A DNA stretch of 21,292 nucleotides from a virus. A program made the position numbers and the translations under genes. Shown here piece after piece: positions 8,751 to 10,651 of the stretch (the stretch's first letter is position 1; each line of letters opens with the position of its first letter). The notes beneath the pieces are model-generated. The model was not told the DNA's origin, searched no databases, and was given only the letters and a program-made list of their open reading frames with translations. The stretch is taken from positions 1 to 21,292 of the IMG/VR virus record IMGVR_UViG_3300005916_000021, one strand, 5' to 3'.

Positions 8751-9149
8751 ATGAAATCATCATATTCTAAGTTTCGAGCGTGGGACGTTGTTAGGCAAGA
8801 ATATATATCCAAAACAGAAATGGTTTTATTAATGGCTGATGGAACTCCTGTTTGGCTTGCCGAAAATACTGTTGAGCCGTTTGAAAACGATATAATTGTA
8901 GAACACTTAACTGAATTACACGACATAAAAGGTAGAGAGATTTATGCGGGTGATATGATTGATTTAAGTAGAGATGAATTCCCTGACGATACCCCAAATC
9001 CGATGGAAGTTGTTTTTATTGACGGTGCTTTCAGGCGTAAATATAGCAGTTGGCGAGAAGGTCTACCATACCCGATATTATGCCAAAGAGAAATACAGGT
9101 CATGCACTTTGAAGTTATCGGGGACATTCACCACAGGGATACCGTATGA
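8751..9149 (+). CDS. YopX family protein
   Basis: This 132-aa protein has the YopX pattern: an N-terminal KFRAWDV (residues 7-13), a central HDIKGREIYAGDMIDL (57-72), and a C-terminal FEVIGDIHH (119-127). YopX proteins are common in phages and mobile elements and their function is unknown. Start ATG 8751 has a strong run of seven G about 12 bases upstream. The gene is A/T-richer than its flanks and lies between two core head genes, so it looks like an insertion. Its stop overlaps the next small gene as ATGA. Confidence 0.85.
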   Translation: MKSSYSKFRAWDVVRQEYISKTEMVLLMADGTPVWLAENTVEPFENDIIVEHLTELHDIKGREIYAGDMIDLSRDEFPDDTPNPMEVVFIDGAFRRKYSSWREGLPYPILCQREIQVMHFEVIGDIHHRDTV

Positions 9150-9313
9150 CTCAAAAAATCCGATATATTGAAAAGCGGCCAGACGTGAAAGCCGAAGTGT
9201 TAAAAGCATTCGACAGCTTGGATATTATCAGGCCCGGCGACACCGGACAGATCATTGTCCACATGAACTGCGGCGGGATTACTAAAATTACCAAACAGAC
9301 TGAGATTAAATAA
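9146..9313 (+). CDS. Small hypothetical protein, 55 aa
   Basis: This short frame overlaps the YopX stop codon (ATGA at 9146-9149), the arrangement of a coupled gene pair. It encodes 55 residues beginning MTQKIRYIEKRPDVKAEV, with a helical first half and a beta-like second half (GQIIVHMNCGGITKITKQ). I do not recognise the family. No membrane segment or signal peptide is present. The coupling and balanced composition support translation; it probably travels with the YopX gene as one inserted unit. Confidence 0.6.
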   Translation: MTQKIRYIEKRPDVKAEVLKAFDSLDIIRPGDTGQIIVHMNCGGITKITKQTEIK

Positions 9314-9326
9314 ATATAAAAAAGAC

Positions 9327-9355
9327 TTGACAGCATATCCGTAATATGCTTAATA
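9327..9355 (+). promoter_or_regulatory. Candidate sigma70-type promoter with internal dyad
   Basis: A perfect TTGACA box lies at 9327-9332. The -10 is weaker: CTTAAT at 9349-9354 (16-base spacer) or TTAATA at 9350-9355 (17-base spacer) with TG in the extended -10 place (9347-9348). Between the boxes is the inverted repeat AGCATAT-ccgta-ATATGCT (9332-9350), 7-bp arms with a 5-base centre, well placed for a repressor or activator to block or gate the promoter. Function is inferred from layout only. Confidence 0.5.
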
Positions 9356-9361
9356 AGAAAA

Positions 9362-9457
9362 CAAATAGCAGTACCGGCTAGAATTTAACCGCGACACGCG
9401 GAACTAAATACTCCGGCAAGGAACCCACCACAATGGGATGACTTGCCGGTTTTTTTT
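9362..9457 (+). ncRNA. Predicted structured leader RNA or small RNA
   Basis: A transcript from the promoter above would begin near 9361 and reach the terminator at 9457, giving about 96 nt with no coding frame. Nested pairings can be drawn by eye: AGUA 9370-9373 with UACU 9409-9412, UAG 9379-9381 with CUA 9404-9406, and CCGCG 9389-9393 with CGCGG 9397-9401 over a 3-base loop. CCGGC occurs at both 9374-9378 and 9413-9417; either copy can pair with GCCGG 9445-9449, so a terminator/anti-terminator choice is possible. It matches no riboswitch I know. Confidence 0.4.
9413..9457 (+). terminator. Rho-independent terminator just before the protease gene
   Basis: CCGGCAAG (9413-9420) pairs perfectly with CTTGCCGG (9442-9449), and eight T follow directly (9450-9457). 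The 21-base intervening stretch can itself form CCCA (9424-9427)/TGGG (9434-9437). The U-tract ends 9 bases before ATG 9467, so the terminator fills the place where a ribosome-binding site should be. Confidence 0.85.
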
Positions 9458-9466
9458 GGTCAAAAA

Positions 9467-10651
9467 ATGGCACGACAATATTACACAACTGCAAGACTAT
9501 CTGAAAATCAGGAAAAAACGCCTGAAGGGTATCTGGTTTGCGCCAATGTGCCGATTGCCAGAACCGGAGCGCTGATTTATACCGCCGCAGAACTCGACGA
9601 CGCTATAGACGCTCCTGCTGGTAGGGTTGTGGTTTCAAGAACCCCCGATGTCCTGTTTGCAGCCCAGACAATAGCGAGTTTTGAAGGTAAGCCCGTAACA
9701 TTAATGCACCCTGAAGAAATGCTGACCCCTGAGAACTGCAAGGAATATCAGGTCGGCACAATTCAGAACGTTCGGGCAGGCGACGGGCAAGATCAATTAA
9801 TTGCAGACCTTTTAATCACAGACGCGGAGGCCATATTTGCAATTGAGCAAGGCTTGCGTGAAGTATCACTCGGTTATGATGCCGAATATGTAGAGGACGG
9901 CCCCGGCATAGGACATCAGAGCGCAATGATAGGCAATCATTGTGCTTTAGTCCCAGCAGGTCGTTGTGGGCCAGAATGTGCCATTCAAGATAAACAATCA
10001 ATCAAGGAGAAAGAGATCATGACACCATTGGAGAAACTTAAAGAAAAGATCAAGGGTATTTTTGCATCCTTTGACAGCGCAATTGATGAACTGAGTTTGG
10101 AGGCCGATGCGGAAGAGGAAAAAAAGGTTGATGATACTAAACCAGATGCCAAAGAAGAAGAAAAACCGGCGGAGGATGTAGCAGACAAAGAAGAAGAAAA
10201 GGAACCTGCATTTGATGCCAAGTCAGCCATTGACGGCATTATGCAGAAAATCGCAGACATCGAAACCGCCGTGGCTAAATTGCAACCGCCTGAGAAGAAA
10301 CCGGATGATGAAACCACCGACGCACAGCCCGACGCGCAGACCCTAGCCCGCGCTGAAATTCTCGCTCCCGGTATTCAGGCAACCGCAGACATTCAGCCCG
10401 CCGCCCTGAAAGTCGCATACGGAACCAAAGACGGCAAGGTGATTATTGACCGCCTGAGTGGTGGCGAAGCACCTGCATTTGACAGTGCTGCCCTTTTCAT
10501 CGGAGCCGCTGAATTGATGACAGAGGTCCGCAAGGCTGAATTTGCCGACACGAAAACGAAAACAGGTACCAAAGATACAAAAATTCTTGACCAACACGCC
10601 CACTTTGCAGCGCGGGCAAAAGAAGTATATAAGCTCCCGAAATTTAACTAA
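9467..10651 (+). CDS. DUF2213-type prohead protease fused to scaffold
   Basis: This 394-aa protein has an N-terminal DUF2213 domain (about 1-175) opening MARQYYTTARLSENQEKTPE. It resembles herpesvirus/U35-type prohead proteases: candidate catalytic residues are His81 (TLMHPEE), Ser134 (REVSLGYDAEY) and His158 (GNHCALVPAGRCG). Residues 185-394 look like a scaffold: helical start (MTPLEKLKEKIKGIF), a Lys/Glu-rich middle, a coiled-coil-like segment and a structured end. It would guide capsid assembly and cleave the scaffold and perhaps the capsid. ATG 9467 fits the family start, but no Shine-Dalgarno is seen, only GGT after a U-tract; TTG 9443 lies inside the terminator stem and is rejected. An internal start at 10019 is listed separately. 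Confidence 0.82.
   Translation: MARQYYTTARLSENQEKTPEGYLVCANVPIARTGALIYTAAELDDAIDAPAGRVVVSRTPDVLFAAQTIASFEGKPVTLMHPEEMLTPENCKEYQVGTIQNVRAGDGQDQLIADLLITDAEAIFAIEQGLREVSLGYDAEYVEDGPGIGHQSAMIGNHCALVPAGRCGPECAIQDKQSIKEKEIMTPLEKLKEKIKGIFASFDSAIDELSLEADAEEEKKVDDTKPDAKEEEKPAEDVADKEEEKEPAFDAKSAIDGIMQKIADIETAVAKLQPPEKKPDDETTDAQPDAQTLARAEILAPGIQATADIQPAALKVAYGTKDGKVIIDRLSGGEAPAFDSAALFIGAAELMTEVRKAEFADTKTKTGTKDTKILDQHAHFAARAKEVYKLPKFN
10019..10651 (+). CDS. Predicted internal-start scaffold protein (nested)
   Basis: Inside the protease gene, AAGGAG at 10004-10009 lies 9 bases before ATG 10019, in the same frame. This is a far better ribosome-binding site than the one upstream of the full-length gene. 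The product would be the C-terminal 210 residues: a helical basic start, an acidic/Lys region, the coiled-coil-like DGIMQKIADIETAVAKLQ, and a conserved-looking end with HAHFAARAKEVYKLPKFN. This copies the lambda C/Nu3 arrangement, in which scaffold is made from an internal start of the protease gene in larger amounts. The site falls precisely at the domain boundary. Translation is inferred. Confidence 0.6.
   Translation: MTPLEKLKEKIKGIFASFDSAIDELSLEADAEEEKKVDDTKPDAKEEEKPAEDVADKEEEKEPAFDAKSAIDGIMQKIADIETAVAKLQPPEKKPDDETTDAQPDAQTLARAEILAPGIQATADIQPAALKVAYGTKDGKVIIDRLSGGEAPAFDSAALFIGAAELMTEVRKAEFADTKTKTGTKDTKILDQHAHFAARAKEVYKLPKFN

Follow-up and report, generated by a model that had tools for sequence, protein, structure and literature searches.

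Why should an intrinsic terminator lie in the middle of a phage head operon, immediately before the gene for the capsid protease? The locus occurs in the window (the whole 21,292-nt stretch that was analysed, positions 1 to 21,292 of IMG/VR record IMGVR_UViG_3300005916_000021), which is part of the contig of a contractile-tailed phage. Its genes all lie on the + strand, in the order terminase small and large subunits, portal, MuF, YopX, a 55-aa ORF, the promoter-leader-terminator element, DUF2213 protease, cement protein, major capsid protein (MCP), sheath, and baseplate genes. A second IMG/VR contig (G001, 26,177 bases) is identical to the window at every shared base, which argues against a local assembly error.

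A previous inspection of the letters, hereafter the sequence-only reading, had proposed that the element is a regulated small RNA, an attenuator or riboswitch-like leader, or a late-gene antitermination checkpoint. All of the letters it quoted (TTGACA, an inverted repeat, the stem, T8, two copies of CCGGC, and GCCGG) are found where it placed them. The features of the locus are given below, together with what is kept in two related lineages, L099 and L100.

8751..9149, + strand: YopX-family gene between MuF and the conserved small ORF (Pfam YopX, E 1.3e-9); context, outside the conserved unit
9146..9313, + strand: conserved 55-aa ORF directly upstream of the putative promoter; 71% and 49% identical in L099 and L100
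9327..9332, + strand: -35 element TTGACA, found in the corresponding gap of each of the three lineages
9345..9355, + strand: putative -10 region TATGCTTAATA, non-consensus, with the shared core TRTRCT(T)AA
9361..9457, + strand: predicted leader transcript of ~97 nt, its start placed from the hexamer position and its end from the U tract
9389..9401, + strand: P2 hairpin, CCGCG-ACA-CGCGG; no pair lost in L099 or L100, four two-sided changes
9402..9412, + strand: linker AACTAAATACT, 11-12 nt in all lineages
9413..9449, + strand: terminator hairpin, an outer 8-bp P3 and an inner 4-bp P3b (CCCA/TGGG); three two-sided changes in P3 and five in P3b, no broken pair
9450..9457, + strand: U8 tract of the intrinsic terminator, U7-9 in the relatives
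9458..9466, + strand: nine-base spacer GGTCAAAAA before ATG 9467, no Shine-Dalgarno (SD); TGGnCAAAA conserved
9467..10651, + strand: DUF2213 head maturation protease gene, first after the terminator (Pfam DUF2213, E 1.2e-45; PHROG head maturation protease)

A strong terminator just before the protease start

The perfect 8-bp stem described earlier, with a U8 tract ending nine bases before ATG 9467, was confirmed from the sequence and is far beyond chance. Its arms are CCGGCAAG at 9413-9420 and CTTGCCGG at 9442-9449, and the hairpin has a predicted energy of -20.2 kcal/mol; in the shuffle test the terminator folds at -20.9 kcal/mol (z -4.75), with 0 of 200 shuffled sequences folding as well. 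No other strong U-tract terminator than that at 9413-9457 occurs in the contig. Hairpin energies in the window, L099, and L100 are -20.2, -21.0, and -20.6 kcal/mol, respectively, and these hairpins are among the strongest long-U-tract hairpins of each contig. The leader is noncoding, with stops in all frames and no leader peptide ORF, and helices P2, P3, and P3b recur in all three lineages.

The sequence-only reading was likewise correct that the protease gene lacks a Shine-Dalgarno. Anti-SD pairing at its start is only -2.4 kcal/mol, versus -5.8 to -10.7 kcal/mol for portal, MuF, YopX, cement, and MCP, making it the weakest among the neighboring head genes both in the window and in the L099 lineage. 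There is likewise no SD before the protease ATG of L100. In all three lineages the distance from the U tract to this SD-less ATG is 7-11 nt, a conserved spacing that ties the terminator to the protease.

Conservation of the unit in three lineages

A profile search of genome contigs yielded two deltaproteobacterial MAG prophage fragments, L099 and L100, whose proteases are 65% and 55% identical to that of the window; L099 also has near duplicates in two contigs of IMG/VR, L127 and L128. Conservation can be judged across only three independent lineages, which share the order 55-56-aa ORF, TTGACA, GC hairpin, 11-12-nt linker, two-tier terminator hairpin, U7-9, and SD-less ATG. The sequence-only reading had held that related phages without conserved or compensatory pairing here would count against it. 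Instead, no pair of P2, P3, or P3b is lost: relative to the window, the 17 pairs show 12 two-sided and 2 one-sided changes across the two other lineages, counted on arms that were matched by hand (MAFFT shifts the L100 helices by at least 1 base), a procedure that leans towards structure.

The 17 bases CTAAATACTCCGGCAAG, formed where the linker's CTAAATACT continues into the terminator arm, are identical in the window and L099, versus ~70% identity in coding DNA there and ~50% in the 5' leader. The linker sequence is not kept in L100. A covariance model of the element (R1) gives only a weak match (17.2 bits) at the expected place in L100. The same model retrieved no further copies from 395 genomes of the phylum.

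A conserved -35 element with a poor -10

The hexamer TTGACA by itself is common, with 23 occurrences on the + strand. A perfect copy is nonetheless present in each of the three homologous gaps, where 0.066, 0.043, and 0.050 copies per gap are expected, and the product of these genome-rate expectations for all three gaps is about 1.4e-4. The -10 of the putative promoter, by contrast, is poor at every permitted spacing. No acceptable hexamer lies 16-18 nt from TTGACA, and the best (CTTAAT/TAATAA) match only 3-4 of 6 positions, making the region non-consensus compared with host-type promoters, which are TTGACA-N17-TATAnT in two MAG genomes carrying related prophages. What the lineages share is the core TRTRCT(T)AA, placed 12-13 nt after TTGACA and occurring once per phage contig, although this uniqueness is partly by construction, the pattern having been derived from these same sequences. 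A simple promoter/terminator scanner listed neither the promoter nor the terminator because of its -10 and loop-length limits.

The inverted repeat between these elements (AGCATAT at 9332-9338 and ATATGCT at 9344-9350) had been described as operator-like. Its letters are as reported; its role as an operator was rejected. Perfect 7-bp dyads occur at chance level (6 observed in 26 kb versus about 10.8 expected from shuffles), and this one is unconserved, being absent from L099. A pattern search for TTGACA plus dyad returned two unrelated contigs, roughly the yield of chance.

A possible terminator gate before the capsid protease

We tentatively favor, with a probability of roughly 0.45, the view that this element works like the lambda pR'/tR' region or the AlpA system as a promoter-proximal intrinsic-terminator gate before the capsid protease. 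From the sequence we infer a transcription start, termination in vivo, antitermination, and timing that would combine as follows. The ~97-nt leader would start from a promoter at about 9327-9355, whose -35 is strong but whose poor -10 probably requires assistance by a phage factor. By default, RNA polymerase would halt at 9450-9457 and release a short structured RNA. Because the promoter stands before a strong terminator, it could contribute to downstream genes only through read-through, and only then would the protease, cement, major capsid, and tail genes be transcribed from it. The simplest route to read-through would be a phage processive antiterminator loaded at or near the promoter, following the logic of lambda Q, AlpA, or GafZ. 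The same terminator would uncouple the upstream low-copy genes (terminase, portal, and MuF) from the downstream high-copy genes.

Among the three options of the sequence-only reading, the antitermination checkpoint has the best support, since three lineages conserve TTGACA, leader, terminator, and SD-less start together, with covarying helices. In each of these lineages, sequence and fold place an intrinsic terminator between the putative promoter and the first gene. We write "works like" rather than "is" because we found neither a binding repeat nor a pause element common to the three lineages, and searches turned up no member of a known family of antiterminators. No repeat or motif is common to the three spacers between -35 and -10, where an antiterminator-binding element might lie, although cognate elements could differ between phages. 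A -10-like pause in the initial transcribed region is absent from L100 and is distant or weak in the window and L099. Q-type proteins need not resemble one another. Searches with PF06530 and PF03589, the known Q families, gave no match in the phage contigs, which are partial, or in the MAGs.

Three known systems offer useful comparisons. At the late gate of lambda, a short leader with an intrinsic terminator lies between pR' and the late virion genes, and Q, which has a counterpart in phage 21, serves as the antiterminator (PMC6606751). The element in the window would share this arrangement of promoter, short leader, intrinsic terminator, and virion genes. However, the lambda gate precedes all late genes, whereas the element described here sits inside the head operon before the protease, without a recognizable Q, a shared Q-binding repeat, or a pause element. 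In Pseudomonas aeruginosa, the terminator overcome by AlpA starts 54 nt after the transcription start and lies immediately upstream of alpB (PMC7969949). The corresponding distance here is ~52 nt, from the predicted start at 9361 to 9413, and the terminator is again immediately before the first gene, but AlpA governs lysis genes of a bacterial program. In the Caulobacter GTA cluster, GafZ is an antiterminator loaded at the promoter that relieves a terminator inside a virion-gene cluster (PMC11150451). That system resembles the arrangement proposed here in having promoter and terminator within such a cluster, and differs in that the Caulobacter terminator comes after the first gene and is made of three 150-bp GC-rich repeats.

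A more elaborate version of the gate seems quite doubtful to us. It would be a phage-specific checkpoint between low- and high-copy head genes that joins an unrecognized antiterminator, possibly encoded by the conserved 55-aa ORF, which lies beside the promoter as Q does beside pR', to the SD-less start fused to the terminator U tract. If true, one element would set both the timing and the stoichiometry of the virion genes. In each of the three lineages an ORF of this type precedes the promoter region, immediately so except in L100, where one more ORF intervenes. The 55-aa protein belongs to no known family, having no PHROG or NCBIfam match and no significant Pfam match. It is predicted with low confidence (pLDDT 70.8) to form one helix and a beta hairpin, a fold with no significant match in the PDB.

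For the majority of phages that infect uncultivated deltaproteobacteria, we know of no account of late-gene control. The promoter-leader-terminator unit before the capsid protease, with its covarying helices, is a concrete and testable cis element, and its study could expose a new family of antiterminators.

Terminators at the same junction in other phages

The strongest competing explanation is an ordinary intergenic terminator. Transcription of the upstream block, or of the 55-aa ORF, would end there, while expression further downstream would draw on leak-through or internal promoters; TTGACA would be fortuitous or part of a weak promoter, as the poor -10 might suggest. Indeed, in 15 of 79 non-redundant DUF2213 loci, L099 and L100 of this clade among them, an intrinsic terminator ends no more than 100 nt before the protease gene begins, versus 1.3 such loci expected from shuffles. 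Many of the terminators outside the clade come straight after the preceding stop codon. Twelve of these other loci were checked, and in none do the 260 nt upstream contain TTGACA or a sigma70-like promoter. In many DUF2213 phages a second cluster of intrinsic terminators immediately precedes the major capsid gene, at roughly +1600 to +1900 relative to the start of the protease gene, often in the arrangement hairpin-U6-spacer-SD-ATG.

Thus the junction terminator is recurrent, and, within the present sampling, the combination of promoter, leader, and terminator is peculiar to this clade. In the other DUF2213 phages that have such a terminator, its hairpin likewise lies some 25-100 nt ahead of the protease gene. 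These phages differ in having no promoter or leader in front where this was checked, and several of their proteases have an SD between the hairpin and the ATG. A plain terminator leaves unexplained the presence of TTGACA in all three gaps, the P2 hairpin, the fixed linker length, and the 17 noncoding bases that remain identical where coding DNA has diverged, and we consider it unlikely while still a serious contender. That terminators recur at both the MuF-protease and the cement-MCP junction points to a general means of keeping the expression of head genes apart, of which we found no description in the literature searched.

A small RNA or a fold-switching leader

The element also has the anatomy of a stand-alone sRNA gene. 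Such a gene, bounded by a promoter and a terminator of its own, would yield a ~97-nt RNA acting in trans on mRNAs of the phage or the host, and AACUAAAUACUCC, the conserved single-stranded linker that separates P2 from the terminator, could then serve as its seed. This explanation is rather improbable. The U tract keeps its distance from the protease ATG and replaces its SD in all lineages, and a free sRNA gene needs neither property; the candidate seed, moreover, changes in L100. Among the few lineages known, the element is found solely upstream of the protease, with no copy elsewhere in the 395 genomes, and the only other place in IMG/VR where the 17 nt recur exactly (L126) lacks a protease-leader context. 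Pairing of the linker's CUCC with Shine-Dalgarno sequences was considered separately and fails, as judged by eye, since L100 has no CUCC.

The sequence-only reading had suggested that CCGGC at 9374-9378 and at 9413-9417 could each pair with GCCGG at 9445-9449 to give mutually exclusive folds. The positions are correct, and the upstream copy does pair on paper with the 3' arm of the terminator, but the alternative fold is not competitive. In each lineage the probability of the terminator stem exceeds 0.99; giving up this stem costs 16.4-18.0 kcal/mol even in the best alternative folds, which leave the upstream CCGGC unused. Moreover, no positionally conserved antiterminator fold exists in L099 or L100, and Rfam 15 gives no family match at gathering or relaxed thresholds, in agreement with the earlier statement that no known riboswitch could be recognized. 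It is therefore very improbable that CCGGC 9374-9378, or some other element, rivals the terminator stem in an attenuator controlled by a ligand or by translation, the more so without a leader peptide ORF; if there is control at all, it must be exerted on the polymerase.

Variable genes around the element

The YopX-family gene, in the middle of the head operon, is missing from the corresponding position in L099 and L100, and the relatives carry other insertions at the junction between MuF and the small ORF. L100 has a 62-aa ORF in place of YopX. In the L099 lineage, the MuF gene itself carries an intein-like insertion (L176:1418-3148, also L099:1-1321; Pfam Intein_splicing E 6e-6, below the curated cut-off). 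These differences indicate that the variable genes are insertions and that the small ORF plus the element form the conserved core. At the beginning of the window, positions 1-330 contain tandem 15-base units (16 or more copies) that probably encode a pentapeptide-repeat protein at the contig edge.
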